Below, in pieces: positions 1,303-63,660 of a stretch of DNA of 64,000 bases; the first letter of the stretch is position 1, and each line of letters starts with the position of its first letter. A program made the position numbers and the translations under genes. A model generated the notes under the pieces. The model ran no database searches. It saw only the letters and a list, made by a program, of their open reading frames with translations, and was not told the DNA's origin. The stretch covers positions 17,998,001-18,062,000 of the forward strand of contig CM059563.1 of the NCBI GenBank assembly GCA_030386875.1, written 5' to 3'. Origin of the DNA: Morinoia aosen. Taxonomy: Eukaryota; Arthropoda; Malacostraca; Amphipoda; Talitridae.

Positions 1303-4300
1303 CTGCACACTCCGGCCCGGCGCGGTCGGAGGGTCTGGTAGAGGTAGAGTTCGGGTCCTCATGAGGGCCACCTCTACCCGGGCCCGGGCCAGCACTGCCG
1401 GTGGGCAGGAGGGCCCCACAGTCCCGGCAGATGGACGCCGCAGACCCACACGAGGAGCAGGGCAGCGGAGGTGAGCTGCCCGAACTCCGACTTTTGGCGG
1501 GCCGCTTCCTGACACCTCGCCGCGACCGCTGCCTGCCACACGCCAGTACACCTGTTATTCCTCCTCTGCTTCTGCTATGTGTTGTTGGTTATTGATGGAT
1601 TTATATTCTGCTTCTAGTGTACATTACTGTTTTTTATTGATTTCTCTTCTGCTTCTGTTGTCCATTATTGGTTTTTGATTGATTTCTCCTCTACTTCTGC
1701 CCTTCGTGATTGGTGTCTAATGGCGCTGGACTTTGGAAGCAGCCCGAGAATGGATCACTCGACTCGTCCCTGTTATCATTATCTATTCTACTTCATTGCA
1801 TAACTTGGCTAATATAAATGACTTCTTAGAGGTTCTTAAAACTACCTGCAATTTCATTAACTTTATCTGAAGCGGATCTATTCTCATGTACTTGTCGTAC
1901 AGTAAGTTTGTGAAAAAAAATTGTCGCTTGCAGGGATTTGTGAGCGATAGGAAAGCATCTCAGCGCCATGCTTATGTGGTGATAGCAGCTGACTTTTGAC
2001 TTTAACCTCAGACCAGCACAGACCCACTGACTCTAACCTCCGAGCAACACAGACCCTGTAACATTAACCTCCGAGCAGCACAGACCCAGGGACTCTGATG
2101 ACCTCAGACCAGCACAGAGCCTGTAACATTAACCTCCGAGCAGCACAGACCCAGGGACTTTAACCTCAGACCAGCACAGACCCTGTAACACTAACCTCCG
2201 AGCAACACAGACCCAGTGACTCTAACCTCAGACCAGCACAGACCCTGTAACATTAACCTCCGAGCAGCACAGACCCAGGGACTCTAACCTCAGACCAGCA
2301 CAGACCCTGTAACACTAACCTCCGAGCAACACAGACCCTGTGACTCTAACCTCAGACCAGCACAGATACTGTAACACTAACCTCTGAGCAACACAGACCT
2401 TGTGACTCTAACCTCAGACCAGCACAGACCCTGTAACACTAACCTCCGAGCAACACAGACCCAGGAACTCTAACCTCTGGACAGCGCTGGTGCCCTCACA
2501 GGCCTCACAGCCGGCGGCGGGCCGGGGCGGCGTGCAGTCGTCCTCGTCGGTGGTGGTAGGGGGTCCGGTGCTGGTCTGGTCACTGGGGTCCTGGCCCGAC
2601 GATGGCTTGTCGTCACTGGACGACAGACGGTCGGGGCGGCGCCACGGCACCAGCACGTCTTGCGACTCGAACTAGAACATGAGGGTCTTTTACTCGAAAT
2701 GAAGAGATAGAACAAAAGGAATTTTTACTCGAAATGAAGAAATATACCCAGAGGATGTTTTACTCGAAATGAAGAAATAGAACAAGATGTTTTATTCGAA
2801 ATGAAGAAATAGAACAAGAGGATGTTTTACTCGAACTGAAGAGAGAAAAGAGAGAACAAGAAAAGAGAACGCATTTTAATTCGAAGAATTTGAAGGGGGA
2901 AGCTACTAAAATTTAATAAAGTTAATTCAATAGAAAGGCCAAGTAGACAGAAAGAATGCCAGGAAAGAGCATATTTTAATCTTATAAATGAGAAAGTGAA
3001 CACTACTGAAGTGAAAAACGGTTATCTGAATACAGCGGCTAATTAAATGGGTAAAAATTGAAAAAACGCTATGGTGAGAACATTGAAATAATTGAAAAAG
3101 TGAAGTATGAATGATATCATGCAATCTATGTCGAAAAACAGGTGATAAGAAATTACGTGATATCATATCACCAATACATCAAGAACCAGCAAATTTCAAT
3201 TGCACCGAAGATTATAGTTTATCAATATAACGCAAATTAGACAGTAATCATTCCTGGACATCTCATCGTTTATTTCTTATTTAAAATATGTAAAATTTAA
3301 ACATGTGGAAGCCAACTATCATGCCCTTTACATTCGGAACGTAATGAGAATGAGACCAATTGAGGAATATGAAAGGTGTGACTTAGTTAACTGAAACACT
3401 TGCGAGTACACTTGTCTACTTGGTCAGTAGACGCTAAAAAAATGTACAATCCTTTTGTCGATCAATATGTACAACTAAGCGTAAATTCAGGTGAAATTTT
3501 TTACTAATATAGAAATTGCTGTTAGAAGTTGTAGAAGAAATTGATGTATACCTAAGATGTCAATCCCCTTTCCATTATTTTAACTTGCTCGGTAGCTATC
3601 CCACCCACCTCACGTTATTTCATTGACACGGCTGGTCGTCTGACTCATCCTGTTAGTCTTTTCAGTGATCGACAAACGATCCTACCATATTACACTTCGC
3701 CCTCCCGCTTATGGTTCTCAACTTGCCTCTGAATGAGTCACTAACTTTCAAACATCTCACATTTCTTCTTCCTATTTTTTCATATTTTTTTCTAGCTAAC
3801 TGCAGTGTAACTCTATCTTTTTATTACATACGCACGTACTTTTCTACTACAGGGTACTCAACTTTCACTGCAGGAAACTTACTTCTTTTCTACCCACTGC
3901 TATTCTACTTCAGGCCTACTTAGTTTTAGACACTACAGGCCTAATAAGCTCTTTACTATATACATACGTACCTGCCTTTTAGTGGAAGACCTACCCTCGT
4001 CTATCACAAAACAATGCACCCACCTTCCTGCACAACATACTTTTCCAACGCAAGACTTACGCACCTCGACCACAAAACAATACTCCCACCTTCCTGCACT
4101 ATATGCATTCTCATCACAAGTCCTACTCACCTCCAATAGAAGACAATGCTTACACCTTCCTGAGTAAAATGCCTTCTCATCACAAGTCACTCCCACTTCT
4201 AACACGAGACAATACACCCAATTTGCCTTCTCACCACAAAACCTACCCACGTCTAACACAACGCAACGCACCCACCTTCCTGTGCTTCTGTTCCATGGCC

Positions 4301-7043
4301 CACACGCTAATCATGAGCCTGCCTCCGATTCTAAGTATCCTAGCAAGCTCCCTGATGGCCCGAACACGACGCTCTGTCGTGGCGAAGTGATGGATGACCG
4401 CGATGCTGAGTGCAGCGTCGAAACTGTCGTCGCGCACTGGTAGGGACAGGTTGTCCGCCATCAGCATCTGTGGCACACGCGTGAATTAGTCGAGTTCGTT
4501 CTCACAAAAACAGCACCAGGAAACTGATAAAAGGGACTCATGTATGCCTTCTCAGGGCAAAGCCTGCTTACATCTTCCTGGCCTGGTATTTTTGTCCATG
4601 AGCCATACATTTGAAGAGGCGTCATTTTTTGTGATATAAAGAAAGGTAACATCAAATGTTTTTCTTGTTGGTCCATGTGGGGCCTCAGTAATACAACATT
4701 CTGATCTATTTGCTCACTACAAATACTGCCACCAATTCTTCTTGTCCTCACCTTTCTTCTTCAAAAAACAATGCAAGATCCCTGAGCTCAAGTCGGTGCC
4801 AGAATAGAAGTCGAGGAAACACACCTGGAAGCTGTTCTGACGCGCGGTTTTGGCAACACTCGCGCATCTGTCCAGGCCGAGCTTGAAGATTTGAGAGTTG
4901 GTAGACAGATACTTGCCGTTGCCGCAGCCTGGGGGAATGAAGTGTAGTCAGCAAACACATGCAGATTTTTTAGTATTTGTCACTAACAAATGTTTTACCA
5001 ACACCCAGAGTTTAAGAGGACAGCTTGTGTTGTCAGTGAAGAAATAAGTGGAATCCTACCTATACCAAGAAAGGGCTTACCAAAAATATCTATGTGCTGA
5101 AACTTTACAATAGCTGACGACTTCAGTGTATATATTGTGGATTACAGGTAAAGAATATCAAGACCTCAAAAATTCAGCCCTACTCTATGAGTTATTTATA
5201 ATTAATATTTAGTTTAATATATGTTCATGGACTATTTTAATTTCACAACGCGAAGCGTTATACTTCCGACAATGAAGACCCTAGTTCATTCCCACTCTGG
5301 CCCTCGCCGTATTTTAATCAGCGTTGGTGCAGCCACTCAGGTGAAAGTAGAAAAGCAAACGGGGAAAAGTAAAATTTACAGAAGTGAATGTATACCTTCC
5401 CTACGGTTTTATAAAAAAAAAGTGATTACCCAGGCTGACTCACTTCCCTGCGGAACTTTTTGCTATAGCATTGATAATAAAGCCCTGTTCTTGGGCGGCT
5501 ATAATCATAGATGATTTGGTGAAAAAAATTGACTGAGTTCCTTGCAGTATCCATGATTATTATCCGTGTAGTTGGCAATTATTGTTATTGACATTTATCG
5601 TCTTTGTTTTTCACAGTCATGTTCGTTGTTGATAGGATGTTAATCACAGCTATCATTATTGTTTATCACTACATGTCGTTGCTGTTCGTAAAATTTTCGA
5701 AAAATAATGGCAATTACTGACGTTGTTTTTGAAGTAATCATTTTCGTTGTTATATGCAAGAAATCACTGTCCTATCCATTGATAACTATGTTTATTTTCA
5801 TAATTTTTCAAGTCATTATTATTTTATTCATTGATCTTGTTCCTTAATACAGTACTAGTTACTAGTTACAGCTGTGCTCTATGTGCACTAGCAGAGCGGC
5901 ACACATTGATGCAAATCTTATGAATTTCACAGACGTACGCGTCTATACTTTTATGTATTCTACTTTTATATGTGTAAACGGACAAATTTATATGTACGTA
6001 CTTATATATAATTTCTGATATATACTTACCTATCTCCACAAAATGCTTACTATCTCAACTTACCTATCTCAATAGTGCTGGCGCATAGGTATTCACCTAT
6101 TTTTAGACATTCATACGTCACCGAAATACTGCAATATTATAGAGTAATCTTTTTATGTTATTTTTGTGCCCCGTCATTCACTATAAAAACATTCCAAAAG
6201 CATTGCATTGATATACAATTTACTATTCTCTCTATCGTTTCTGAAATAATTGATTCAAAATAGATTGAGAGTCCAAAAAAGTTGCGACACTTCACACCTA
6301 CACGGGCGACTCCGGCGCTGTCAGACCATCAGCAGTGTAGACCTTGTAGGTAAATCTGAATATGAAGAAGTATCCGTGAAATGTTTCACCTTCACTGGAC
6401 GTTTGTTCAACCCCCAAGGCTTCAATTACCCATGCGTATCTATCTTAATTCTATTTGAAACGACGCTTATGGTTTGCATTTTGACGGCAACGTGCGCCAC
6501 CGGTGGCCGCGGAAGGGATTTTCATAATGGTGTTGACTGACCAGCGGTCAAAACTCAATTTTCATAAATACTTAATTTAATCTAAATAAATACATGAACA
6601 AAGTAATTTTTACTATATTTAAAATTGCTTACTACAATCAACTTTAAGTTCGAGTTGAATATTGAACTTCAGTTTAAAAAATTGCGGTCAAAGTGTAAGG
6701 CTTATAAAGGAAAAGTATTACCAAGCTACAACGTTTCTCGTAAAAAGAGGCTGTATAAAACACTACTACCAACCATATACGTCATACGTAGAAGTTCCAA
6801 ACTGTCATAAATTTAACTACTCACGAAAAATAACAATGCCGGAGTTCTCACGCCTCACTCACCCACATCAGCCACCAGGGAACCAGGCTCGAGCTCCTCT
6901 AGGAACCTTGCCACCTTGGGCCAGGCTCTGCCTCTGTCGCTGCCCAGGTGCCATGAGATCTGGTCATACACATCGTGCACGTACGCCCTCTCGAGCGCTA
7001 CTGAGCGGGCCTCCCGCTCCTTGCGGCTCTCTTCAGGTGTCAT
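1303..7043 (-). CDS. TRMT9B: TRMT9B / Trm9-like tRNA methyltransferase-family protein, 5 exons, 3' partial
   Basis: Exons, in transcription order: 7043-6863, 4928-4825, 4467-4276, 2671-2475 and 1532-1303. Phases 1, 0, 0, 2, 1 join without a frame break, giving about 301 residues from ATG 7043. SAM motif I (ADVGCGNGKYL, residues 58-68) spans the exon 1-2 junction. Later family signatures are SIAVIHHF (about 116-123) and VWAMEQKHRK followed by FESQDVLVPW (about 150-169). The last pair resembles vertebrate TRMT9B more than ALKBH8. Exon 5 encodes an Arg/Ser-rich, Cys-containing linker (CSSCGS, CRDCG). The family methylates wobble-uridine side chains in tRNA or, for TRMT9B and Drosophila fid, acts as a regulatory relative; which applies here is not visible. 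The donors of exons 3 and 4 touch tandem arrays. The exon 5 acceptor is the weakest call because its pyrimidine tract is poor. Confidence 0.88.
1985..2474. repeat. About 62-bp minisatellite abutting the exon 4 donor of the TRMT9B-like gene
   Basis: Roughly eight units alternate ACCTCAGACCAGCACAGACC and ACCTCCGAGCAACACAGACC half-units. The array ends at the exon 4 splice donor. On the minus strand most units carry GAG-GTTAGAG-like sequence matching the authentic donor (AGAG followed by GTTAGAG at 2478-2468). Confidence 0.85.
2672..2880. repeat. 35-45-bp tandem repeat abutting the exon 4 acceptor of the TRMT9B-like gene
   Basis: Four to five units of TTTTACTCGAAATGAAGAAA followed by TAGAACAAGAGGATG. 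The exon edge at 2664-2685 reads GACTCGAACTAGAACATGAGG on the plus strand and aligns with the unit apart from an internal gap. The array therefore appears to include the first bases of exon 4 plus its acceptor. Confidence 0.7.
3960..4275. repeat. About 65-bp degenerate repeat abutting the exon 3 donor of the TRMT9B-like gene
   Basis: Four units start with AAAACAATGCACCCACCTTC or variants and contain TCTCATCACAAGTC. The CACCTTCCTG core recurs near 4015, 4093 and 4155 and again at the real exon 3 donor (4273-4282), so the minus strand carries several CAGGAAGGTG decoy donors. Confidence 0.7.
6477..6695. mobile_element. PiggyBac-like MITE, copy 1
   Basis: A 219-bp element in intron 1 of the TRMT9B-like gene. 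It matches 21920-22135 and 37860-38079 over its length. The right end is GCGGTCAAAGTG, the inverse of the family terminus CACTTTGACNGC. The flanking TTAA is degraded (TTTG on the left, TAAG on the right). Confidence 0.65.
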
Positions 7044-10000: not shown

Positions 10001-10860
10001 AGAAAACCAACTCACTTCCATTTCCTGACTTCAATGAAAGCATTGCTCACACGTTAAAAAAGATTTTATTCCCATTACTCCCATTTACTCCCATTTTTAA
10101 TTAGAAATTTTACTCACTGCCATCACTCAATACTGAAACTTACGTACGAGAACATCGAACAACTAATTCTCGAATTATTCAATAAAAAGCTAAAGGACCA
10201 AGCTCGAAACACGGCCCAACAAAAACATTTGCCGTTCAGTCGCCTAACAGTTTTGCCTCTAACCTCTTCACACGAATGTGATGTTGAGATAATAAAAAAA
10301 TTTAAAGAACAATAGTTGAAACATGAACTCAAAATATAAAATAAAACCCAAAAGTTTGATGCAAAAATGAACAGAAATTGCCCTGGTGAGCGCACGTTGA
10401 TTCTCATGATAATAATGATGATTAAATTGATTGAGATGCAATCAATGGTCCTTTCTGGCATGACGATAGTTTTTCTGACCTGGCCTTCTTATAATAAGAT
10501 GGGAGTTTACCCCATTTCCTACGTGAAAATTTTTTGCATCCTTTCATTGAGAAAGTATAAGAGTGCGCATAAAATAACACAGTTCAAAAGTCAAAATAAC
10601 ATTCGTTTACATAGATTTTCGATTACACTTTTCTCTGCAGTGAACATGTTGGGAATTATAAAGTAAGACATTTGTTCCATACTCGAAAATATTGTCGTTA
10701 AAGAAATGCTGTGTTGCGGCGTGTGATAGGTACGATGCGACCATCATTCACTGCTTTATTCGGTTCCTATGTTTGCAATTTTTTAAATGAATTAAAAAAT
10801 TCAGGTGTTGTACGAGTATTAGTTCCCTGAGTTCCGTTATATTCACACAATAATCATTTA
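7044..10860. other. AT-rich stretch without recognisable genes
   Basis: It begins upstream of the methyltransferase start codon and so should include that gene's promoter or 5' UTR, but no TATA box or CpG-rich core stands out. Open frames are short (up to about 112 codons) and show no family resemblance or convincing splice sites. The GC-richer patch near 8400-8550 has no identifiable product. Confidence 0.4.
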
Positions 10861-10879
10861 CGTTCGACTCATCGGAGTC

Positions 10880-11315: not shown

Positions 11316-11444
11316 AGTGGTCTGTCAGTGGTGTGGGGCCCCTCATCACCTCACGCACAACAGAAATAAAGGAAGAAAAGGGTTCCCAGAGAGCACAGCA
11401 TCTGGGACGTCAGGTCATGTCACGAGACGCGGCGTAGCGAGTGT

Positions 11445-24164: not shown

Positions 24165-25035
24165 CGTACCACTGGAGGTGCACCAGAACGTGCGTACCAG
24201 TGGGTGCGTACCAGAACGTGTGTCCCAGTGGGTGCGTACAAGTGGGTGCGTACCAGTGAGTGCGTACCAGAACGTGCGTCCCAGTGGGTGCGTACGAGTG
24301 GGTGCGTACCAGTGGGTGCGTACCAGGGGGTGCATACCAGTGGGTGCGTACCAGTGGGTGCGTACCAGCGGGTGCATACCAGTGGGTGCGTACCAGTGGG
24401 TGCGTACCAGCGGGTGCATACCAGTGGGTGCATACCAGCGGGTGCGTACCAGCGGGTGCATACCAGTGGGTGCGTACCAGCGGGTGCATACCAGCGGGTG
24501 CATACCAGCGGGTGCGTACCAGCGGGTGCATACCAGTAGGTGCATACCAGTGGGTGCGTACCAGCGGGTGCATACCAGTGGGTGCATACCAGCGAGTGCA
24601 TACTAGCGGGTGCATACCAGTGGGTGCGTACCAGTGGGTGCATACCAGCGGGTGCGTACCAGTGGGTGCGTACCAGTGGGTGCATACCAGTGGGTGCATA
24701 CCAGTGGGTGCATACCAGTGGGTGCGTACCAGTGGGTGCATACCAGCGGGTGCGTACCAGTGGGTGCGTACCAGCGGGTGCATACCAGTGGGTGCATACC
24801 AGTGGGTGCATACCAGTGGGTGCGCACCAGTGGGTGCATACCAGTGGGTGCATACCAGTGGGTGCGTACCAGTGGGTGCGTACCAGTGGGTGCATACCAG
24901 CGGGTGCGTACCAGTGGGTGCGTACCAGCGGGTGCGTACCAGCGGGTGCGTACCAGCGGGTGCGTACCAGCGGGTGCGTACCAGTGGGTACGTACCAGCG
25001 GGTGCGTACCAGCAGGTACGACCTAGCGAGTGCAG
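24165..25035. repeat. 14-bp minisatellite, about 60 copies
   Basis: The unit is TGGGTGCGTACCAG with CGGG and CATA variants. Since 14 is not a multiple of three, three units make a 14-codon super-unit and all frames on both strands stay open, giving overlapping frames of up to 328 codons. These are treated as repeat artefacts. The two dimorphic sites per unit are mixed along the array rather than blocked. Confidence 0.95.
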
Positions 25036-34061: not shown

Positions 34062-34340
34062 AACATCGGCATCTTTGGGATGCTTTATTTCCAATCGAGC
34101 CTGATACAAATGATCTTAAGCATTGGTTTTTCAAATGTCTTATAACTAACACTATATATAGGACACCATGACGGTTCCCCAGTAAAGTCGGTACCCATTT
34201 CCGACACCTGGGTCGAGTGGGGTATTGTGCTTGAGCTTTCCCTCATACCCAACGGGGAAAATCGCAGCGCCAGCGCCGGGATACGAACCCGCGACTCCAA
34301 CATACAAGTCCGATCCCTTAACCGCTGTGCCACCGTGAGC
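34062..34340 (-). mobile_element. tRNA-derived SINE, copy A
   Basis: Read on the minus strand it starts GCTCACGGTGGCACAGCGG and has a pol III A-box-like TGGCACAGCGGTTAAGGG and B-box GGTTCGTATCCC, then an unrelated body and a 3' end with AATAAAGCATCCCAAAGATG. It aligns over about 280 bp with 52462-52738. An A/C-rich AAACAAACAAAC stretch borders the 3' end. Confidence 0.85.
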
Positions 34341-34371
34341 ACTTCCAAGAAAATCCAGTGCACCAAAGAAA

Positions 34372-34560
34372 AAAAGAATGAAAGAAAAACGTTTATTTTC
34401 CAAGTGGCCACATGAGGTGTATAAATAGATAGACCATACGAGGCATATTAATGGACAAAATATACGAGGCGTACTAATAGACAAACCATACGTGGCGTAC
34501 TAATAGTCTAACAAAAGTTCCATACGAAGAGAACTAATTGACAAACCATCCTGTTCGAAT
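34372..34560. repeat. Interspersed repeat with about 26-bp units, copy 2
   Basis: Follows the SINE by about 30 bp. GAAAGAAAAACGTTTATTTT is followed by four to five units of TAATAGACAAACCATACGAG. Related to 29664-29830. Confidence 0.6.
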
Positions 34561-45666: not shown

Positions 45667-48600
45667 CTAGTTATCTACGGCACGAAAATTGTCTTGCGAC
45701 TGTGTTCCGTGACCACTGAAATTGGACAATAGAGCGGGCATCGCCTGATCGCCGTTGAGTGCAGGATTCAACCTGCACTGCTGTTTGTAGTGCTGGGCTT
45801 GATCATAGCTGGCAGGAGAACTCATGGTTTTATTTACAAAAGCTCCGTTGGGAGACACGAGAAGAGACCGCACCGTCCTGGGCGTGAAGACACCGCCGAT
45901 GCCTCCACCGCTGCCTGCCGAACGCAGGCTTCCCAGCACCGGCGTGCTGCTGGTGCTGCTGCTCGACAGATGCAGCTGGTCCATGGGGCTCGACAGATTT
46001 CGCCTGCTGTGCAGTGAGAGCGGTCTGTCGCTTCCAAAATTGAGCTTATGCTCTCTGTTGCAGTACTTTCCTATTTAAATGTTAGTCGATCATCAAGCTG
46101 TATGGTATATCTCATGCATGGCTCAACTTATGCTGTTAAAAATTAGCAAAAGCTGTTCGTGACTTGAATTAAGCATAGCTTCAGCTGAGTATCCAAGACT
46201 AATTTTTGTCCAAGAGCATGTGGTTGGCATAATATGATGTGTAATATCAAGGACCGGCACTACCAATGAAATAAGGGTCTTTGTAAAATTGTGCAACAAC
46301 TTGGAGAAATGAGCGATTAGGAGTGTCCAGTTAATGATTGATGCTGTGCTTCCAATGTAATTTCCCCCTGTTCTTTTCGTTGTACACGTAGCAAAGTCTC
46401 GGAGGAGGGTCTCTAAAAAGGTCAATTCTTTAACTAACCAACCGAAGAAAAATATAAGTACTAAAAGAAAACAGAAATATCGTACAAAATCTTTTGTACG
46501 CCGTAGTAAAAGAGCAACATTGGTGCGTTTGAAGTATATACGAGTAAGCTGGTCACACATAGGTAGGATATACCCCTGAAAAAATATAAGTATTACGACT
46601 GATCAGATTAATTATAAACAACGATCTATGAGCTTCGGGATTTCTTGTCTGAGTTAAGGTGTTTTATGGTCAATGTAGGATTTCTAAAAAGCACAAAATT
46701 TCCCAAACTAAGTAAAATTTTGCGCTCCGTCTCAATCGATTATGTTTATCAATGGCATGAACTGTTACACTCATCTGTATTGTATCTGGCCGCTGAAAAA
46801 ACAGGATCGGAATACATTGATGTGTTTCAATTATGAGGAAGTAACTGAGTGTTTCTTCCTGCTGAGAAAAAAGAAAAGTTGGTCATAATTTTTTACTCCA
46901 CCTAGAGTAACCAGGGACTATTTTCACTCCTCGTGAGAAATTTGACGCCCAGACGTCTGTTATTGGCGTTTAAAAACAGATGTAGTGTATCAACATGATT
47001 GAGATAAATTATTGTTTTTAAATGATAAATGAAAGAAGAACTGGTAAGTTAATGAAAATTATATGAATCGTGGATCCCCTAGACTGTACATCGCTTCAAA
47101 CGTAGGGGTGAAAATGGCCGAGGGCCGTGGATTGGATAAATGTCAAGTGACTCGAGCACGCGCCAGCACAACATACATGCAAGCTACCTTGTGCAAATAC
47201 CATACATCGAGTCGCCAACCCAGGCAGACCAATGCTTCTCTCTGGTAGCCATTCCATCGATGGAAAATTGAAACTTTTTGGAACTTGTGGACTTCGACTC
47301 AGTGTTTCAGAATGAGGAGACTGAGTGGTGAAAACCAGAGCGATGAAAAAATCTATTTAAAATGTTGTTTAAAAAGTATAAAAGGAATTATTGACATCAA
47401 AAAAAAGAAATGTCGAAAAGATTGATAGAAACAATTAAAGTGATATTCGCTTGTTTAGTGGTAGAGTTGAAATGAGAATGGTGAAAAATATTCGAATGGA
47501 TTTATCCATCTTATTGATCTGTTGAGAATTTAATGAAAATAAACGATTTATATACTGCCCTATAATACCACGCTAATTTTTATTTAGAATTAATCATTAT
47601 ACATCGAGGTTAAGAAAATTCTACCATGTATTTGTGCTGTGGTTAACCTGATCCCATATGAGAAGTGCGATTTTGAAACGGAGGGGGTAACCGTGACTGT
47701 GTTCTGGAGTAAGTAGAAAGGCATTTGAAAAACCAATGAACAAGATGATAGGTATCAGGCTTGATTTGAATAAAGCATCCTTTTTTTAAGTTCAACTGAG
47801 CCTGAGGCTATGGAGTGACTTACTCCTGGTTACCTTGGCGAGGGCGTGCGGGTGCCGTACGGACTGCGGTGCCTTGACTCGCTCCCCCGAAATCCTGGCG
47901 ATGCAACAAGAAATTCAAGAAATTATCTTTAGCAGAGCATTTGAGTCATGGTTTTCAAGAGCTCTTTTTGTATAGACATTAAAAGTCACAGTATTGGGGT
48001 GGATGAAATATTATAAAGGTAACGACTTAAGACGTTTTGTCTAAGTTACTAATGATAAAGAAACGATCAAATTATGACCCTGAATATTTAAAGACAAATA
48101 TTTTTGACTAATAAAAACAACAATCCTTGTTCGTGGAGATCTGACTGATTTTACTTATCGAATACTAACAGAAGCACAATGCCCCCTAAAATTTGACGTA
48201 GTAATTTCATTTCTTGTAATTTTTTCTACATTTGGAAAAGCCTGGTGCCTAAGTTTACAGCAGGAGTATATTTAGGCAATTGGGGTGGTGAACATAGCTG
48301 CACCTACAGAACATACGCTGGACGCAAGAGACTAAAGAAAACCAATCCTTCAATAACCGAATCGGACAGTAGGAAGAAATTACTGTACGATTTATTATAA
48401 AAAGAGGTCCGTCTGTTACCTAGTTAATGGTGCGTGCTAAAACTTCGGTGTCCGTGAACTGCTTATTTTTTTATTTTTTTGCTACCCATTGTTAAGGGCT
48501 AAGTGAGATCATAACTTTCAAGCCTTATAGTAATAATTTACGAAATTTTTTCTCTTTGAACGCAAAATTTTTAGTGAGACTTCGCTCGAATACAAATTTA

Positions 48601-51600
48601 TGCACCTTTGATTGTTTGAAAGTAACGCAACAAAATTACATTTTCTTGCGTGTATAATTTGCAAACGAAACGAATTCGAAGCCAAACAGGCTGAACTACA
48701 GGGACGGTGCCCTTTTCATTGTTGGGGACAACAGTTTGTCCTTATTCTTCGTTAATAAGCCCGCTGTTTTCAATGTTTTCGAAGTAAGCGAGTGGAAATT
48801 ATTAAAAGACTATGAAGGTGATTTTCAGAGCGCACTCTTATGTTACGAAAATATCTCAATATGTAAGAGCAATATGTAACTCAATATGTAAATGCTATTA
48901 AGTTAAGTTACTGCTGATAAATTTATTTTGAACCAAAGAAAGTTATAAAACTCAGCTATGTTTTATTCTGGCTTAGAATTGGAAAGCCCATGGCAATAAT
49001 TTCGAACTAACCCAAAACTTGAGGGTGAATGCAAGCAAAGGTATCACTGATGCTGGAGGGAGCGTTAGAACCTGCAATGCTCTGTTGGAACCCTTTTGTC
49101 AGGAGGCGCAGGCCTGCTGGAGAGGAGCTCACCTGCGTCAGGAGGCGCAAGCCTGCTGGAGAGGAGCTCACCTGCGTCAGGAGGCGCAGGCTTGCTGGAG
49201 AGGAGCTCATCTGCGTCAGGAGGCGCAGGCCTGCTGGAGAGGAGCTCACCTGCGTCAGGAGGCGCAGGCCTGCTGGAGAGGAGCTCACCTGTGTCAGGAG
49301 GCGTAGGCTTGCTGGAGAGGAGCTCACCTGCGTCAGGAGGTGCAGGCCTGCTGGAGAGGAGCTCACCTGCGTCAGGAGGCGCAGGCCTGCTGGAGAGGAG
49401 CTCACCTGCGTCAGGAGGCGCAGGCCTGCTGGACAACACCTGGCCGCGGCTTGTCTTGAGCAGCGTGAGGCGTCCCGGGCTGATGGTCGGGCTTTGCTGC
49501 AGCGTCATCTTACAATTAAAATCCAAGAAATGTTTCAACCTGAAGCAATCCTCTCACTGCTCTAAAAAAACGAACTGAATACGTGTTTCACATAAACCTA
49601 ATTGATCTACATGCAGCACATTAAAACAATAACGTGGGTGCTCTTATGAGTCACGGTTGCTTGAGTTGCAGACAACAGAAATATCTCTACCGATCACCCT
49701 ATTGTTACAATCGAGTTGTCGAAATCGTTTCAGCTTCTCAACCTAAGGAGATGGAATGAGTGATTGAGGTGTGCACTGTAAGTGCCCTAGTGCGTTTTTT
49801 TATTACATTTTTTTATTACTCTTATCAAACTTAGGAAAGCTTCACCATGGGAATACATTTCTATGTTTTTCTCTCAATTATTCATAGAAACATTAGCATG
49901 GTCTGTTATGATACCCTTGTACGTTTGCTAACTAAGGATCTTCATGTTAAGTGGTTTTAAAATTAATGATAACTTTTGTATCAACTTTATCTGAAATTAA
50001 TTTTTTTTGTTTTTTCCTTTCAGTGAACTGAAAAGTCCCCACACATCTTTGACAATACATGTATATTTAACATGAGTTGGATTTAAGTAAGAAGACGTAG
50101 CTTTTTTTCTCTGAAAAGTTCAGCTGATCGCCTGTAAGATTACTGCGAAACTAAAGCTTGAACAAACATACAGGCAATGGGCTGACTGAAACCGCAGAGT
50201 CAGAGTGAGCATTCTGCTAAAAATAAATTTTTGAAGCGAAATGTCGTTTTTCTGTCCCGTCGTTTGGCCGTTCACAACCACACGTCTAAGGGATACCCAA
50301 CTTTCGAGATACGTAACACACATCTTAGGGATGCTCGACTTTCGATTTACGTAACACACATCTATGGCATACCAAACTTTTGAGATATGTAAGACATATC
50401 TAAAGAATTCTCCACTTTCGGAATGCGTAACAACTCAACTAAGTTTTCATATACTAACATGACACGCACATGGCTAACACTGAGGATGTCAACCCAATCT
50501 ACGAACTTCTACTGGACCAGCAACAGGTGTCACAGGGGATAAAAGCTAAGGCGAGCAACTGCAACAACTGCTGCCTGCGCCCACATGACAGTTCAAAACG
50601 GGGCCCATCACTCGCATTACACCACACCTAACGTCCTAACGTAACAAAGGCCGAAAGGGACTTACCCGAGGAGACTGTAGCCACAGGGGCTGCTGCTGCG
50701 AGCAGTCGAGAGGCGTGCCAGCTGGCGGCACTGAAGGAGGCCTCATCGAGGCCGCTCTTGGAGTTTGGGGAGCGCGCACTGGTAGTTGAAAATACTGTTG
50801 CTGCTGGAGCTGTTGTTGGTGTTGTTGCTGCTGTAGTTGTTGTTGCTGCTGCTGGTGTTGGTGTTGTTGCTGCTGGTGTTGGTGTTGTTGCTGTTGCTGC
50901 TGGTGCTGCCACGCTGCAGGTAAATGCCCCTGGTGCTGAGGGTGCGGATGCGGCAAGCGGGGATGAGCTTGAGCAGGCAGCTGATTATGGTGGAGATGTT
51001 GCGTTGGTTGAGCATGGTGCAGTGGCGGTAGCTGGATGTGGTGCGTGTTGCTATAACAAGCGTCGTGCTGCATATGCTGCTGTGGCTGCATATGCTGCTG
51101 TGGCTGCATATGTTGTTGCGTGTGCTGGTGCGCCACGTGTTGCTGCTGCTGTAGATTATGCGGCTGACGAGGGATCATCTGAAAATTATTTTTATTACGT
51201 TCATTGTTTCATCTCTGTTTGTGCTCGGGTGAGCGATGATCTCACGGAAACTCAGGAAATTTGAAGTATCATTACTGAAGAAACACGAACTTGTGTGTCT
51301 CGGTTGTTACAGCCCGCTACGGTGGGAAAAGATGGCATGAACATGTTGAAAAAACGAAAAGAGATAATATGAATAGAGAAAAAACGAAGGTCCTTCACAA
51401 AAAAGGCGGAGAACTACAGAATGAAAGATAAGGCTGAAAGAAAAGGCCTATCTGATAACAAATTCAAATCTGAAATAGACTCGTACAACATATTTGCTGA
51501 TTCTGTGGTGAGTAGCTTAAAGTAAGACTGAGGAGCACTACTCCCTAATGCATGCTGAGGAGGACAAACACTATTAATATACCTTTCATCCGAGTGTAGC

Positions 51601-54600
51601 TCTGGTAACCTACTTCTCTCATCTCAGAGGATTGCTAAGTTCCTGAAATGATCCGAAAGACAATTCCCTTCAGCCCCCTCCCCCTGGGGGATATTTCGAA
51701 AGAACAACTAGCCTACAACCTGAAATACAGTAGGACCTGAATAAAAAATTTCGTCCTAGACAGGAAACAGATCGTAAGCAGTTTTTTCGACGAGTACATG
51801 CATCCTAATAGCGCAATATTTCAAAGATCCGAACTGCGGTGAGCCGTGCAAATAGAATATCCACAGCAGAAGAAGTTCCGTCTCACGTCCGCCCCCGCCT
51901 CTCAGAGCGGGCGCACAGCTGTCGGAGGAGCGGCACCAAGAAGAAAAGAAAATATAAAAAATGAAAATGAAAAAACACTAATTTCACGGTAATTTATTTA
52001 CGCACCACGGTGCTGGGGTGGGAGTGTAGGGGAGTTACTCCCGGTGTCCCGTCCCCAGGACCTCCTCCCCCTCCGGCTGGTCTGCGGCTCAGCTCCTGCC
52101 GGAGTTTCTGGTTCTCCCTGCACAGTTGCTCGCATCAGCAGTTAGTCATTGAAAATAATTTTTGAAAACATGCGATCATGAATTTCCTGGTTTCAAATTG
52201 TAAAATTTAGTTTCGGCATTACAACTGTGAACTTTCTAAAATCGAGTACTAAAAGGAAAATTCTGTGGAGCTCGTTGAAGAATTGAAAAATGTACTTTAA
52301 AATATTTTAAAGACTGCAATCAAGAAATCAAGTCGAGAAAACTATTTCCACGCCCTACTCTGTAAAATGGTTCACTACTTGAGCAAGTTGTTTGATTTTA
52401 TTTCATTACCGCTGTTAACATACAGGAGAAATATCAGTTTTGTTAGTACGAAATAAAGGTTAACATCGGCATCTTTGGGATGCTTTATTTCCAATCAAGC
52501 CTGATACATATGATCTTAGCATTGGTTTTTCAAATGTCTTATAACTAACCCTATATATAGGACACCATGACGGTTCCCCCGTAAAGCCGGTACCCATTTC
52601 CGACACCTGGGTTGAGTGGGGTATTGTGCTTTAGCTTTCCCTTATACCCAACGGGGAAAATCTCCGCGCCAGCGCCGGGATACGAACCCGCGACTCCAAC
52701 ATACGAGCCCGACCCTTAACCACTGTACCACGGAGAGCAAATAAAGTCAGTCATGTTTTGATATTTTTTTCCGTGAATAAGCTACAAGTGGTACTGGGTG
52801 CACTGAATTTCTGAATCAATTTCTGAACTGTTGAAACTCGTCAGTCGTGTTTCCGGCGATAATGGATGTACGAGTACACCTTCGATGAGGACACTTTTCA
52901 CAAATCTTATTTCTAGAATTCCTGAAACGTTGATACAACACGCCAGTTTTGGTGTTAGCGTTAATGGACGCGTACTCTCTTTTAGGACATTTTTAGCAAT
53001 CTAATTCCTCGATTTTCTAAATTGTTGAAACGCGATACTTTTGGATATAGGGCTACTGGATGCACTCACTCTGTTAGGACACTTTTCCCCAATATTACTC
53101 CTCGAATTCCTGAACTGTTGAAACGCGATACTTTTGGATTTAGCGTTACCGGATGCACACACTGTTTGGATACTTTTCCCCAATATTACTCCTCGAATTC
53201 CTGAACTGTTGAAACGCAATACTTTTGGATTTAGCGTTACCGGATGCACACACTGTAAGGACACTTTTCCCCAATATTACTCCTCGAATTCCTGAACTGT
53301 TGAAACGCGATACTTTTGGATTTAGCGTTACTGGATGCACACACTGTTTGAATACTTTTCTCCAATATTACTCCTCGAATTCCTGAACTGTTGAAACGCG
53401 ATACTTTTGGATTTAGCGTTACTGGATGCACACACTGTTTGAATACTTTTCTCCAATATTACTCCTCGAATTCCTGAACTGTTGAAACGCGATACTTTTG
53501 GATTTAGCGTTACTGGATGCACACACTGTTTGAATACTTTTCTCCAATATTACTCCTCGAATTCCTGAACTGTTGAAACGCGATACTTTTGGATTTAGCG
53601 TTACCGGATGCACTCACTCTGTTAGGACACTTTTCACCAAACTTACTCCTCGAGTTCCTTAACGCGTCCCAAGGAAGACGTGAGCCGCTTCTCCAGCTCG
53701 TTGTATCTCGACATCTGCAAGCGATCGTAGGAGAAATTTGAATCAAATCACAGCTGCGCAACACCCGCACCTCGTCCCGTGAAAGCCCACTCATGACAAC
53801 ATAAATCAAGTGCACAAGTTAACCAAAAGTTTCAAAGGCGTATTTGTTTATCACAGTTTATATGTACAAGCAAAACTTAGCTAGGCAAATTGTTTTCAAG
53901 TAATTCTTGAGCAAAAATTTACAGGATATAGATGAACGTTATGAAAACCCAGACCTGGTACTACATACAGCACTCAATGCTTGTAAAATAATTAATTTCC
54001 AACAATGATGATGATGTTTTAATGCCAAGTTTTTTTGGAGACTTTAAGGTTACAAGTGTTCTTGAAAATGATCAGATTGCACGCCTAAAAATCTCTCGTT
54101 TTCTTCTCACACTCATCTCATGAACTCGTTGAAAAACTGCACAACTGTTGGAGGAGGGATAGGAAAAAAGGTTGATAGGAACGATGGAAAGTTGGTAGAA
54201 GCAATGACATGAAAGTACGAGCGTTGATCGCTGTTGAAAACCCGTCATCATTACATACTTACAAAATTAATTTGGGTAGAATTACCAAGGCGACGGCTAA
54301 ATAGTCTTTGACGTAAGATGTCATTAACTGACTTTATCGTTAACATTATTGTCTCATACAAGCTACGATCAAATGATTTTTGACCTAAGTTTTTGTTAAC
54401 CAATTTTATTACTAACATTATTGTCTCCAGCAAGCTATGATGAAATAGTTTGACATAAGTTGTCATTACCTGACATTTTAACATTATCTCAAGCAAGCGA
54501 CGACTAGATAGTCTTTGACATAAGTTGCGTTAACTGACTATATAATTATTATTATTATTATCCGGAACTGGAAGACAATAGCTACGTACCACTTTGCGGT

Positions 54601-58117: not shown

Positions 58118-59191
58118 CACGATTTGGTGGAAATTAAAAAGGAAGCATTATTATTATTCGTCAGGTGTACTGGTACGAGATATTTCTGCGTAATGAAAAA
58201 TTTGTCGTTTTCTTAAATTATATTGAATGCTGAAAATGAACGTTTTTTCATTAACAATTTTAAAATTTTGCTGTCATTACAAGTACTAAAAACACACTGG
58301 AAGTATTATACTGAATCATTGTTGTATTGGGAAGAGCATCAGGTCTTCCCTCGTCACTTTCCATATCTGAACTACTTGAGGGTAAAACTTTTCACGTAAA
58401 TAAATATTCAGCTAAAAAAATAAATAAGTGCCTGTGCGACGAAATACTTGGTAAAATTTCGAAATTCATTATATATTATTTAGAAAGCTCTAATTACTCG
58501 ACACACTCTAATTGAAATCTGTTCAATCGTTTGAGAATACTTTGAAACATTTTTTCATGAACTTTAAGTTAAATTATTATAAGATGTATAGGAAAGGTGT
58601 ACTTTTGGTAAGTTATTTAACTATCAATGATGACAATTTTCAGCGGTAAAGACACAAATAGTGAGCATAATGATAAATAAATGTATTTTGTAGTTTTATT
58701 CATTTCAGATCATTTATCAGAGTGAAATTCCACTTATCTGTTGCAGAATATTACAATGTGAATAATTCGAAGATGTGAAATTTATAGCGGTAAGGCAGAA
58801 CTTTTAATACGAACACGCCACAAATTATTAATTTATCATGCAACCTAAAGAAAAATTCGAAATAAGTTTTCCGGCAGTGTTGAATGAAATTTTGATCATT
58901 TGAACCAACTACATATCATTCTGCTTTCGATAATGAATTGAGGAACTTTTTCTAGAAGCACTGAGAATTCATGTAGCTACAGAGTCTCCTGAACAAGAAT
59001 TCATATTCTGGGGATTCATGGTTCATGGAACACTATTCTGTGTCGCGTTTGTGAAGTGTAAATCTTCCCCAGTAGCGGGCTCGCTGCTCGAGCCTCTAGG
59101 TTGCGGCAAGCCGGGCAAGGGAATGGGACTCAGTTGCTAGAAGGCTGTCGAGGGTGTTGGTTACGTAGCTAACTCCACGATCTGTTGAGCG
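58118..59191. promoter_or_regulatory. Divergent intergenic region between RNF212-like and the membrane-protein gene
   Basis: The two start codons face away from each other, 1074 bp apart. A GC-richer 150-bp patch (about 59040-59190, with GGTTGCGGCAAGCCGGGCAA) sits before the plus-strand gene. No TATA box was placed with confidence. Short decayed units resembling AGTATTATACTG are present but unassigned. Confidence 0.35.
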
Positions 59192-59474
59192 ATGAGTGTT
59201 CCCGAACATCAAAACGGAGCGTTGCCGAGAGGGCCGCTGCCGGATATTCAAGAAAATGAACTTTTAAACGCAGCTCCATCGGAGGTCAAAGTGATTATTC
59301 GGGAAAATCCTATGCAGGAAAAAGGATCAACTTCATCAAAAGCTGCAGCCACCGATAAGAAGGAAAAACTTCCCCGAACACAATTGGAGAAGTTTTTAAT
59401 TTCGACGTGCATCTTGCTGTCATCGTGCGTGGTGGCATTGCTGCTGCTCCTCATGGTACAAGCGTACATGTCAG
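59192..59474 (+). CDS. First coding exon of a type II single-pass membrane protein
   Basis: From ATG 59192 the exon encodes 94 residues and one base (phase 1) before the donor CATGTCAG-GTAAGA. Residues 1-68 are polar and acidic, then Lys-rich (AATDKKEKLPRTQLEKF). Residues about 69-91 form one hydrophobic helix (LISTCILLSSCVVALLLLLM). Cytosolic N-terminus, one helix and a downstream exon would fit a type II ectoenzyme such as the M13 neprilysin/endothelin-converting family, where this exon layout is common; no catalytic exon is in the window, so the family is inference. The following exons were not found up to 64000. Confidence 0.6.
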
Positions 59475-60404
59475 GTAAGAGCGCCGTGACCAACTAATTT
59501 CGAACAATCAAATCAACTGGAATCATACATTAAGGTGACCTTCGTTGTCTAACCGTTCACTTTAAAAAAAAATAATTATTTTCTTTTTCAATTACTCAAG
59601 AAAATGATACATCTCATTAAAAGACATTGCTTAATGGTCTTATATAACTACATCATCGCTTACTCCTTGTTTGCATATAACTGCGATATTTAACTTCAAT
59701 TGTATTACCTATCTCTTCAAGTAAAAAACTTTTTCTTGTCGTCACAATTGTTATGCTTCGATAAAATTCATACGCCTTGGTGAAGTAATAATATTTTTAA
59801 CAAAGGAAATACGTTCCGTAAACCGAAGTGAAAATGCCGCGATTTCGTATAATTATTGTTTTTCTGAAAAAAAAACAGATATCAAAGTGTCCTTTTTTAA
59901 ATGATTCTTTTAAAATATTTTTTTACGGAAAAAAACGCTGTTGATTTCCCATTGGTTCCACAGTGGTTTTGCAGTCAAAATACGTGCGAATAACACGCGA
60001 GCAAATACACAAATTGGAGTCATGGCATAATTTTTGCGGAAAATGTTAGCCTTCGCCTACTCGCATTTTCGAAATTTAAATGTGTTTTTACCGGCTGGTT
60101 GTAGGCTTGCCTTGGAGTTCTTTTTAACCCCTCAGCATCAAACGCAAGTATTATATTATTATTAGTATTATTATTTATGATTTGCTGTTAAAAATTTTAA
60201 CTTTATATTATTTTCGAGTCTCTCTACCAAGCGAATTGTGGATATATTTCCATATCCGTTAATTTTTCTTTAAGAGTTGACGTATTGTAAATTACAGCTT
60301 GACTGAGAACTCCTACGTTCTATGAACGTTCCTGAGTTCATCAATTCCATTTAACAGTTTGAAAAATAGAATTAAAAGGGCGATTTTTAGGAAATCTAAT
60401 ACGT
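59475..60404. other. No exon recognised; intron or intergenic
   Basis: AT-rich with poly-A/T runs (59561-59572, 59864-59878). A copy of CATTTAACAGTTTGAAA at about 60349 is repeated at about 60478, bracketing the hairpin that follows. Confidence 0.35.
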
Positions 60405-60482
60405 AAAATGAAAAGAAGAACCAATATAAAAGGGAACGTTTGCCAAGAATGTTCCCATTTATATTGGTTCTTCTTTTCATTT
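60405..60482. repeat. Near-perfect long hairpin, about 31-bp stem
   Basis: AAATGAAAAGAAGAACCAAT with ATAAA and GGGAAC in the left arm pairs with GTTCCC, TTTAT and ATTGGTTCTTCTTTTCATTT in the right arm, around a loop of about 13 nt (GTTTGCCAAGAAT). The arms differ only by one or two bases near the loop. Confidence 0.85.
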
Positions 60483-60778
60483 AACAGTTTGAAAGCTGAT
60501 AAATTTCTCAGTTACATGACTATTTATTTTTTCTTGAATATTCGTTTAAAACAAGATAATTCCATACAAGTTAAGATAAACCAGGCTCGTAAATTGGATA
60601 AAAAAATAATAAGTAAGGTGGTCATTTAGATTTTTAGAGGTATTTATTTAAAACGAAATGAAAATTCCGTAAAATTGAAGACTAATCAAGCTCATAAAAT
60701 AGGTTGGAATTAATCAGTTGCCTCAGACAACAATTATGGCAGTGGTGATGCTCTAGGAGGGTAAACACTTTCATGTAC

Positions 60779-60936
60779 ACAGTACGTCCCACAAAAACCC
60801 GAACCGAGTATTTATTTTAACGTATCAGTAATACCATCGTAAGAATATCGTAGGCATTTAATTTTTAGCAAAATTATGATGGCATTACTGATACGGGAAA
60901 ATAAATACTCGGTTCGGGTTTTTGTGGGACATACTG
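60779..60936. mobile_element. 158-bp palindromic element with about 60-bp terminal inverted repeats
   Basis: The left arm starts CAGTACGTCCCACAAAAACC and continues CGAACCGAGTATTTATTTT; the right arm is its inverse ending GGTTTTTGTGGGACATACTG (one mismatch in the first 20). Inner arms CGTATCAGTAATACCAT and ATGGCATTACTGATACG also pair. A CAGT...ACTG terminus is typical of Tc1/mariner-type elements; a TA duplication is not evident. Confidence 0.75.
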
Positions 60937-61166
60937 CATTATACTTTTCATTAGTGCCTCGGGAGCATGTGGCACATTTGTTAGCCTGGCGCGCGCCTCG
61001 TTGCAGGGTCGACGACATGTGACGCCTTCATTTTGCCAACGTAATATTGCAGCTCATATTATTTCGCTGCCTTTTTTGCTGCCTTGTTGTTTTATAGTAC
61101 GTTAGGTCGCCGTCAAGCGCGGGCAGCTGCTGGAGCTGATGTAGAGTTCGAGCATTGCTCATGGTA

Positions 61167-61423
61167 GAGGAAACAAGGTAGGGTCATACAAGTCTTTTTT
61201 TCGTCGACTGCGTGGGTTTGCTGACGTAACGGCAACGAACCAATGGCAGCGCTCATATTGCTTCTGATAGCACTGCTACCCCTGAATCCGTTTCTCCTGT
61301 TGGTCTAACGTTACGGCGTTTTGGTAACGTCATAAAGTTTGTTTAAAATAAAGCCTTCTATTGGCTAGCCGAAAAAGAAGAAGAGTATCTTCCCCCATAA
61401 AAATGACCCTACCTTGTTTCCTG
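61167..61423. mobile_element. 257-bp MITE with TA target duplication
   Basis: GAGGAAACAAGGTAGGGTCA at the left is mirrored by TGACCCTACCTTGTTTCCTG at the right (one mismatch, first base). TA dinucleotides flank both ends (61165-61166, 61424-61425). Sub-terminal blocks GACGTAACGGC and ACGTTACGGCG are also partly inverted. No coding capacity. Confidence 0.8.
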
Positions 61424-61891
61424 TACCGTGGCGTTGCTGCTCTTGTGTCATGACGAGCATGCACTCTTTGAAAAATTTTAATATTTTAGGTCAAACCTTG
61501 TTGTATTACCTTAGTGGTCAAGGTTAATATTTCTAATGTCAATGATGATAAAAGCAGTCACAATGTTTTGATTTTCCGTGCATTACACTTCTCAGTTGTT
61601 ATGAAATTCTTTTCCAAATTGTTGATAGTATAGTAATAGCCATGCGGTATTAAAAATAACAGCCGAACATTCCGGCGGTCACATTTTCGCATTTCTCTTT
61701 CCTTTATTTCAGTTAGTGCCCTTTTCAGTAATTTTTTACACCGCAAGGTAAGTTCAAGAAGCTCTAAACTTTCGCCGAAGCCGGCAGTGACAGTTTGTTA
61801 AGGCGCCATCGATACAAAAACTCTTTCGCTGAATAGTTTTTGTGTTTACTCGAGTGTGAAATTTTATCACGATCGCGGCAGCAACGAGAGG

Positions 61892-61970
61892 ATGTGTTCG
61901 TTCACTCAGCCATCAGTTTGCACCAAGGAGAAGCAACAAGCTGTGGTCCGATTTTTGCGGACGGAGGAAG
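61892..61970 (+). pseudogene. HTH_48 / mariner-transposase-like N-terminal fragment
   Basis: From ATG 61892 the frame encodes MCSFTQPSVCTKEKQQAVV followed by RFLRTEEG. The block KEKQQAVVRFLRTEEG resembles the first helix of the HTH_48 domain in mariner transposases and GVQW-type domesticated proteins, in which a segment like EIHRRM normally follows. Here the reading runs instead into satellite sequence and stops at 62012-62014. GAAG-GTGGTA at 61967-61976 could be a donor, allowing a longer spliced protein beyond the array, but no continuation was found before 64000. Either a broken transposon remnant or a first exon. Confidence 0.5.
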
Positions 61971-63660
61971 GTGGTAAAATTCACCCCATAACTTGCATTA
62001 CAATGCAGGGATAGTGCTTTATCCCGAAAAGCTCTGTTCAAGTGACAAAGTCAAGTAACAAGGCAGGTGGTGAAGTTTACCATTGACTTTCATAACAATG
62101 CAGGCATAAAGCTTTATCCCGAAAAGCTCTGTTCAAGTGACAAAGTCAAGTAACAAGGCAGGTGGTGAAGTTTACCATTGACTTTCATAACAATGCAGGC
62201 ATAAAGCTTTATCCCGAAAAGCTCTGTTCAAGTGACAAAGTCAAGTAACAAGGCAGGTGGTGAAGTTTACCATTGACTTTCATAACAATGCAGGCATAAA
62301 GCTTTATCCCGAAAAGCTCTGTTCAAGTGACAAAGTCAAGTAACAAGGCAGGTGGTGAAGTTTACCATTGACTTTCATAACAATGCAGGCATAAAGCTTT
62401 ATCCCGAAAAGCTCTGTTCAAGTGACAAAGTCAAGTAACAAGGCAGGTGGTGAAGTTTACCATTGACTTTCATAACAATGCAGGCATAAAGCTTTATCCC
62501 GAAAAGCTCTGTTCAAGTGACAAAGTCAAGTAACAAGGCAGGTGGTGAAGTTTACCATTGACTTTCATAACAATGCAGGCATAAAGCTTTATCCCGAAAA
62601 GCTCTGTTCAAGTGACAAAGTCAAGTAACAAGGCAGGTGGTGAAGTTTACCATTGACTTTCATAACAATGCAGGCATAAAGCTTTATCCCGAAAAGCTCT
62701 GTTCAAGTGACAAAGTCAAGTAACAAGGCAGGTGGTGAAGTTTACCATTGACTTTCATAACAATGCAGGCATAAAGCTTTATCCCGAAAAGCTTTGTTCA
62801 AGTGACAAAGTCAAGTAACAAGGCGGGTGGTGAAGTTTACCATTGACTTTCATAACAATGCAGGCATAAAGCTTTATCCCGAAAAGCTTTGTTCAAGTGA
62901 CAAAGTCAAGTAACAAGGCAGGTGGTGAAGTTTACCATTGACTTTCATAACAATGCAGGCATAAAGCTTTATCCCGAAAAGCTCTGTTCAAGTGACAAAG
63001 TCAAGTAACAAGGCAGGTGGTGAAGTTTACCATTGACTTTCATAACAATGCAGGCATAAAGCTTTATCCCGAAAAGCTTTGTTCAAGTGACAAAGTCAAG
63101 TAACAAGGCGGGTGGTGAAGTTTACCATTGACTTTCATAACAATGCAGGCATAAAGCTTTATCCCGAAAAGCTTTGTTCAAGTGACAAAGTCAAGTAACA
63201 AGGCGGGTGGTGAAGTTTACCATTGACTTTCATAACAATGCAGGCATAAAGCTTTATCCCGAAAAGCTTTGTTCAAGTGACAAAGTCAAGTAACAAGGCA
63301 GGTGGTGAAGTTTACCATTGACTTTCATAACAATGCAGGCATAAAGCTTTATCCCGAAAAGCTTTGTTCAAGTGACAAAGTCAAGTAACAAGGCGGGTGG
63401 TGAAGTTTACCATTGACTTTCATAACAATGCAGGCATAAAGCTTTATCCCGAAAAGCTTTGTTCAAGTGACAAAGTCAAGTAACAAGGCGGGTGGTGAAG
63501 TTTACCATTGACTTTCATAACAATGCAGGCATAAAGCTTTATCCCGAAAAGCTTTGTTCAAGTGACAAAGTCAAGTAACAAGGCGGGTGGTGAAGTTTAC
63601 CATTGACTTTCATAACAATGCAGGCATAAAGCTTTATCCCGCAAAAGCCTTGTGTAAATA
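61966..63660. repeat. 95-bp satellite, about 18 copies
   Basis: The unit contains GGTGGTGAAGTTTACCATTG, CATAACAATGCAGGCATAAA and CTTTATCCCGAAAAGCTCTG. The first unit (61966-62062) is diverged and overlaps the end of the HTH fragment (GGAAGGTGGTAAAATTCAC against GGCAGGTGGTGAAGTTTAC). Early units carry AGCTCTG and GGCAGG; from about 62790 most carry AGCTTTG, about half with GGCGGG, so two amplification waves are visible. The last unit decays at 63640-63660. Confidence 0.95.

Follow-up and report, generated by a model that had tools for sequence, protein, structure and literature searches.

Genes and tandem arrays of the window

The window analysed here is a stretch of 64,000 nucleotides from the talitrid amphipod Morinoia aosen (contig CM059563.1, positions 17,998,001 to 18,062,000, forward strand), in which four exon edges of a TRMT9B-like and an RNF212-like gene fall in or against tandem arrays whose units carry a copy of that edge. 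It belongs to an assembly of 1.99 Gb in 29 contigs, which are written C1, C4, C9, C11 and so on below. Gene models were built from homology and splice signals, with 33 splice edges in the window, and splice sites were scored in bits with simple matrices.

The TRMT9B-like gene lies on the minus strand, with five exons inside the window and more exons to the left of it; its protein has its top match in Penaeus indicus (71% over 65% of the query) and contains the Pfam domain Methyltransf_11 (1.2e-15). The RNF212-like gene, also on the minus strand, comprises exons 1-7 and a possible exon 8. The RING domain of its product falls slightly below the Pfam cut-off (27.4 vs. 27.9 bits), but the RNF212/vilya-like identity is supported nonetheless, because it matches 15 crustacean proteins, all of decapods or a mantis shrimp. 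Thirteen of these matches stand at 53-61%, one at 68% over part of the query and one at 44%. Searched against PDB, the same protein gave no match. The third gene, a MALSU1/RsfS-like gene of six exons, lies on the plus strand and encodes an RsfS domain (Pfam, 5.8e-20).

Tandem Repeats Finder returned 60 rows for the window, corresponding to 38 distinct arrays that cover 15.7% of it, and some of these arrays lie within coding exon 6 of the RNF212-like gene. This exon (50666-51178, minus strand) has a very high content of Gln and His, and its two coding tandem repeats occupy positions 50795-50909 and 51067-51112.

Splice junctions within tandem arrays

An earlier note on this DNA had described six exon edges as the exact borders of arrays whose unit contains a copy of the edge. 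Four of them stood, with edge copies in the units at all four places: the exon 3 donor and the exon 4 acceptor and donor of the TRMT9B-like gene and the exon 4 donor of the RNF212-like gene. The features concerned are as follows (a caret marks a splice junction here and below).

4276-4467, minus strand: TRMT9B-like exon 3 (..VWAMEQKHRK), in-frame model with the junction fixed by homologues
3986-4274, minus strand: array on the donor side of exon 3, units of 66/54 bp
2475-2671, minus strand: TRMT9B-like exon 4 (FESQDVLVPW..), with an array on both sides
2669-2842, minus strand: array on the acceptor side of exon 4, units of 35/67 bp
1999-2477, minus strand: array on the donor side of exon 4, units of 31/62 bp
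1303-1532, minus strand: TRMT9B-like exon 5
53647-53714, minus strand: RNF212-like exon 4 (MSRYNELEKRLTSSLGRVKELEE), donor GA^GTAAGT, last exon base 53647
53006-53663, minus strand: array on the donor side of RNF212-like exon 4, unit of 91 bp

The exon 3 donor of the TRMT9B-like gene reads AAG^GTGGGTGC, with 4276 as the last exon base, and the alignment of homologues places the exon 3/4 junction at ..WAMEQKHRK^FESQDVLVPW... Three copies of this edge, AGGAAG^GTG.., were found at 4156, 4090 and 4024, that is, 66 bp apart, each differing from the 17-base edge at two to four positions. About 7-10 bases of the unit are exonic, and one of the copies scores 9.6 bits, the same as the real site. At the exon 4 donor (last exon base 2475), GAG^GTTA is present in 14 further copies, mostly 31 bp apart, and the exonic share of the unit is limited to the last three bases plus scattered matches. 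The reading frame and a weak similarity are the sole basis on which this donor was tentatively placed. At exon 5, the array 1557-1714 stops short of the acceptor edge, from which it is separated by 24 bp on the intron side.

The exon 4 acceptor is the weakest of the four standing edges. Its first exon base is 2671, and the array extends three bases into the exon. The units each carry TTCGAGT, which corresponds to exon bases 1-7 (one copy reads TTCGAAT), whereas the 28-base edge word used in the tests below has no local copy at 18/28 or more, so this edge rests on the 7-base match and the 3-base overlap. The array starts at a full polypyrimidine-tract acceptor and spans from TTTTCTCTCTTCAG^TTCGAGTAA (AG ending at 2836) to TTCTAG^TTCGAGTCG (AG ending at 2672). 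The outer AG scores 12.2 bits and the coding AG 4.4 bits, but the outer acceptor reads Phe-Glu-stop and only the inner, weaker one yields the conserved FESQDVLVPW. Scores of 4.7-5.6 bits were obtained for three more AGs within the units, and in four internal copies the homologous position has no AG. The outer copy looks like the older acceptor and may be the ancestral one. If the minus-strand acceptor at 2836 were used, the stop codon after two residues would be a possible drag on the expression of the TRMT9B-like gene.

In the RNF212-like gene, the array covers the last 17 bases of exon 4, with an exonic part of about 14-17 bases per unit. Six copies read GGAATTCGAGGA^GTAATATTGG, and GGAA(T/C)TCGAGGA^GTAA recurs in the 91-bp units. 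The exon 4/5 junction is fixed by homologues and lies within a conserved coiled-coil-like stretch, and the decoy donors are weak (0.7 bits vs. 6.1 bits for the real site).

The other two of the six edges did not hold. They concern the following features.

49440-49508, minus strand: RNF212-like exon 7 (..ISPGRLTLLKTSRGQ), drawn as far as homologues support it
49098-49433, minus strand: 39-bp array (13 codons) of RNF212-like exon 7
61991-63648, plus strand: 95-bp array at the putative donor of a helix-turn-helix (HTH) exon, for which no exon evidence was found

The 39-bp array is open in the frame of the gene through all copies up to a stop and carries a strong donor, CAG^GTGAGC, in seven of its eight copies (10.7 bits), while a weaker donor (last exon base 49440) lies six bases ahead of it. 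Most crustacean homologues carry the motif ISPGR(L/I)(T/S)(L/M) and then diverge, so the end of exon 7 is provisional and its donor a putative, unproven array border. A possible extra exon between exons 7 and 8 was noticed by eye at about 47200-47335 (minus strand, reading SPHSETLSRSPQVPKSFN..), with no homologue match listed for it. The HTH exon was rejected, as a Pfam search of it gave no domain and no adjoining exon was demonstrable.

Chance tests within the window

The window was the discovery set, and all chance tests made on it are post hoc. Copies of the 28-base edge word at 20-23/28 were found at three donors, those of TRMT9B-like exons 3 and 4 and of RNF212-like exon 4, compared to 0/660 trials reaching 19/28 or more with shuffled flanks. 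Array borders within 10 bp of an edge numbered four against 0.82 expected (P = 0.008), and a random fall of the ancestral units predicts 0.82 spanned edges, with a probability of about 0.009 for four or more. When the non-coding arrays were re-placed randomly, with an exon overlap of at most 20 bp, borders between -20 and 100 bp from the edge were also in excess (7 vs. 2.37, P = 0.009). In contrast, the number of edges in or within 10 bp of an array showed no excess under circular shifts (5 vs. 5.59), and edge words had a local copy at 3/33 edges compared to 5-7/33 for words taken from +14 to +100.

Eight window arrays showed no similarity to one another and none matched elsewhere in the window. 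This agrees with the earlier statement that the arrays are unrelated, and a single transposon or satellite family is rejected within the window. The MALSU1-like exons, which had been described as free of edge arrays, are indeed so: the nearest array lies 617.5 bp away, with 10 edges tested. As the idea had been suggested by this same set of arrays, an independent sample was needed.

Array borders around 213 independent edges

The sample was drawn from the same genome by two Pfam searches, with 79 rows for Myosin_head and 72 for Cpn60_TCP1. Of the latter, 56 were kept, after dropping 16 rows that were intronless and groEL-like on C26 and C27 or long open frames on C1 and C4. Of the resulting 135 rows, DNA was available for 114 exon matches, in which 213 edges were called (148 myosin, 65 CCT). 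The calls relied on the profile matches together with splice signals rather than on RNA, and none was made at domain ends or where no site above 1 bit was present. The inward search was 30 bp for all edges, since at one acceptor (C11:27526911) the profile match overruns the edge by 21 bp of intron. The border tests were confined to units of 9 bp or more. The range of -20 to 100 bp was picked after inspection of the myosin histogram, in such a way that only the CCT subset constitutes a fresh test of it.

Among the first 30 myosin loci, no array was found within 20 bp of a called edge, but the picture changed with later loci. In a myosin gene on C11, the exon ending in ..YFYLNQ has a donor array of a 42-bp unit in about ten copies (26-28/28). 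This unit takes in the last 19 bases of the exon, then the donor and part of the intron, and is open over 14 codons. An acceptor array is present at another exon of this gene, with a 76-bp spacing and six copies at 28-32/40. A called myosin donor on C9 has a 37-bp unit with copies at 21-23/28, and a CCT acceptor on C4 has a 39-bp unit with one copy at 21/28.

An outward copy of the edge word at 20/28 or more was detected at 7/213 edges (myosin 3/148, CCT 4/65), four of them at the C11, C9 and C4 arrays; an earlier run with a narrower inward search had given 2/145. Words taken inside the intron had copies in 11/212 cases at +14, 26/212 at +30, 24/211 at +50, 21/211 at +75 and 24/209 at +100, and farther in the counts were 18/203 at +150, 12/201 at +200, 9/199 at +300 and 10/197 at +400. 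Thus, edge words were copied less often than intron words at +30, +50 and +100 (Fisher P 0.0005-0.0014; up to 0.022 when +150 is included), whereas no significant difference was found between edge words and those at +200 (P = 0.24).

The excess of arrays near exon edges that the earlier note led one to expect was supported in a weaker form, as a broad zone but, when all arrays are counted, not as a peak at the edge. Borders between -20 and 100 bp numbered 27 vs. 14.2 expected (1.9-fold), a value not reached in any of 2000 permutations, and were sparse between 100 and 300 bp (9 vs. about 20.6). The CCT edges alone reproduced the excess (8 vs. 3.68, P = 0.015). Within the zone the density was even, with 10 vs. 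5.33 at +/-20 bp (P = 0.037), 8 vs. 4.62 at 20-60 bp and 9 vs. 4.36 at 60-100 bp. When the C11 gene was removed, the +/-20 bp bin fell to 6 vs. 4.7, and the whole zone remained in excess (22 vs. 12.3, P = 0.0015).

Origin of the arrays

Structures of this kind are known from lancelets, where they were named mirage minisatellites, in Adh3 and the globins BflGb6 and BflGb9 according to PMC3087553, with troponin C and PGBD5 added in PMC3902484. As described there, these arrays have tandem units that span exon-intron boundaries at both donors and acceptors, with decoy AG or GT dinucleotides in many units, units of 10-72 bp in Adh3 and of about 160 bp in the globins, and regular splicing in spite of this structure. 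In our data, units spanning a boundary are present at the four window edges and at the C11, C9 and C4 edges; both types of boundary are duplicated, with donors and one acceptor in the window and a further acceptor on C11; and the units vary (31-91 bp) with no sequence shared between loci among the eight window arrays. The structure is thus of a known kind in a new host group. It differs from the lancelet cases in that the host is a crustacean, known from the DNA of one assembly, and in that TRMT9B-like exon 4 is arrayed on both sides. Two lancelet papers were found to use the term mirage in this sense. A search of open-access papers for minisatellites in crustacean genomes and introns returned none, but absence from that literature is weak evidence.

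The positions of the arrays, the edge copies in their units, their recurrence in other genes and their distribution around edges were read directly from the DNA. We consider it probable that these arrays are mirages, that is, local tandem duplications in which a splice junction happens to lie inside the unit, the junctions being hit within an array-dense zone and not mainly as targets. What we infer concerns the mechanism of duplication, the order of events, their neutrality and the site used by the cell. A short segment made of the exon end and the intron start, or its mirror image at an acceptor, would be duplicated in tandem, and the array would then expand or contract by slippage or unequal exchange. 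The junction attached to the exon would keep splicing, while the extra copies and their decoy sites would become tolerated intron. Such arrays occur across the introns of the same genome, at a higher density in the 100 bp or so next to splice sites, and junctions would be hit as part of that zone; in coding exons, such duplications would survive only where tolerated, as in the Gln/His-rich exon 6 of the RNF212-like gene.

The richness close to exons could reflect retained sequence beside a transposon-filled interior, a mutational bias or a tolerance of redundant splice signals, all of which are possible. With regard to the first, younger transposons that fill the interior of introns may mimic a near-exon enrichment. 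The tendency of arrays toward splice sites is modest but was independently repeated, and the evidence for edges as seeds is nominal.

Several observations weigh against the proposal that the junctions were hit without being targets, or that the copies are harmless, and are gathered here. In the window, borders within 20 bp of an edge numbered 5 vs. 0.79 in the re-placement test (P = 0.001), a count that includes the putative edge of exon 7. In the sample, the +/-20 bp bin was nominally high for all arrays, as given above, and was more so for arrays scoring 100 or more (10 vs. 4.22, P = 0.0045), for units of 20 bp or more (10 vs. 4.78, P = 0.01) and for edges with a splice score of at least 5 (9 vs. 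3.86, P = 0.0135). The stricter subsets overlap in their arrays, their P values are nominal and the C11 gene gives 4 of the 10 borders, but they leave some room for a preference for the edge. Finally, at TRMT9B-like exon 4, competition with the coding acceptor is to be expected from the one of 12.2 bits that lies upstream, and the units hold three further AGs of 4.7-5.6 bits, so that the harmlessness of these copies is not obvious.

The counts at +/-20 bp in the window and, in the sample, for all arrays and for those scoring 100 or more would speak for seeding anchored at the junction, akin to one of the mechanisms raised by the earlier note, in which something at transcribed splice junctions, such as R-loops, a paused polymerase or repair, starts the duplication. 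The borders of the higher-scoring arrays also thin outward (5 vs. 3.47 at 20-60 bp and 3 vs. 3.23 at 60-100 bp). Nevertheless, all arrays taken together have no edge peak relative to 20-100 bp, the excess at the edge shrinks as described when one C11 gene is left out, and edge words are copied less than intron words at 30-150 bp. Anchoring at the junction itself was therefore largely unsupported, and we regard such seeding as unlikely, although the higher-scoring arrays do lean to the edge. As a candidate beyond general proximity, it received only nominal support on the 213 edges, most of which came from the stronger arrays and a single gene.

Chance adjacency in a repeat-rich genome, together with miscalled edges, would fit the HTH case and perhaps exon 7, and is in line with the result of the circular shifts and with an exon 4 acceptor that shares just seven exon bases with its unit and is missed by the 28-base word. 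Against this stand the three edges with copies at 20-23/28, a level that shuffled flanks did not reach, the border counts above permutation in both the window and the sample, and two junctions fixed by homology, which make chance a quite improbable account of the whole.

The earlier note had also pointed to the intron-gain model of Rogers, in which introns are made by repeated duplication of exonic AGGT segments. As described in PMC4974935, this model shares with our arrays the duplication of segments that bear splice signals, and in the potato case an intron-exon structure was copied. Indeed, our units carry an exon end plus a splice signal, and retained copies of the 42-bp C11 unit would insert amino acids in frame. 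However, there an exonic segment becomes a new intron, whereas here the units are mainly intronic, with at most about 17 exonic bases each in the window, and lie in apparently pre-existing introns; no exonic AGGT unit that supplies both splice sites was seen in the window. Of the introns of 1604, 942 and 1529 bp, stretches of 1144, 308 and 888 bp, respectively, are free of the arrays, and at the exon 4 acceptor the array starts at a complete acceptor, as if the intron was already there. The model thus misfits the window cases and is very improbable for them. In human genes of segmental duplications, internal tandem repeats at exon-intron boundaries alter the exon-intron structure, as reported in PMC2812944; those repeats were studied by comparing recent paralogues, and new introns are formed by some of them, whereas here the arrays seem younger than their introns.

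That the decoys were selected for tuning splicing efficiency or dosage is hardly credible, given the weak decoys of RNF212-like exon 4 and the four exon 4 acceptor copies that lack the AG, which resemble decay or avoidance, even if one exon 3 donor copy equals the real site and seven CAG^GTGAGC copies are strong.

Other features of the window and the assembly

59192-59474, plus strand: first exon of another gene, with no Pfam match and a transmembrane segment read by eye
63780-63861, plus strand: remnant of the 5' end of a U2 small nuclear RNA (26.8 bits, under the Rfam gathering score of 46)
63846-63880: short repeat of 18 bp, beside the U2 remnant
1026-1236: dispersed repeat, with 39 other genome matches among 40 scored of 1549 candidates, at 73-81% identity
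12517-13573 and 24190-25012: large arrays with units of 24 and 14 bp, respectively
52580-52740 and about 34150-34410: two similar stretches resembling short interspersed elements, by eye
about 60780-60930 and 61160-61430: long inverted repeats resembling small foldback elements, by eye

The two large arrays have long open frames on both strands (343 amino acids on plus and 283 on minus in one, 265 and 331 in the other), which are probably artefacts of unit composition. Elsewhere in the assembly, C26 and C27 hold 11 groEL-like rows, seven of them nearly full-domain and intronless (those of C27 at 56.8-71.8 Mb), so these contigs probably contain bacterial DNA. At C1:35644596-35648320, six consecutive exons match positions of about 376-452 of the myosin head profile, the pattern expected where a muscle myosin heavy chain gene has mutually exclusive exons.

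Significance

The distribution test on the sample cautions against inferring edge-anchored mechanisms from single repeat-rich windows. The arrays described here extend mirages from lancelets to a crustacean, in several unrelated genes of one genome, and provide material for two questions, the lengthening of introns and the way in which the spliceosome passes over rows of near-identical decoys. The exon 4 acceptor of the TRMT9B-like gene is a sharp natural test, because its stronger upstream copy would give an immediate stop. Beyond these cases, it is conceivable, and we suggest it tentatively, that in this crustacean tandem duplication is concentrated in the roughly 100 bp beside splice sites and crosses junctions, so that mirage-type copying may, as a general and ongoing process outside lancelets, lengthen introns and supply decoy splice sites.

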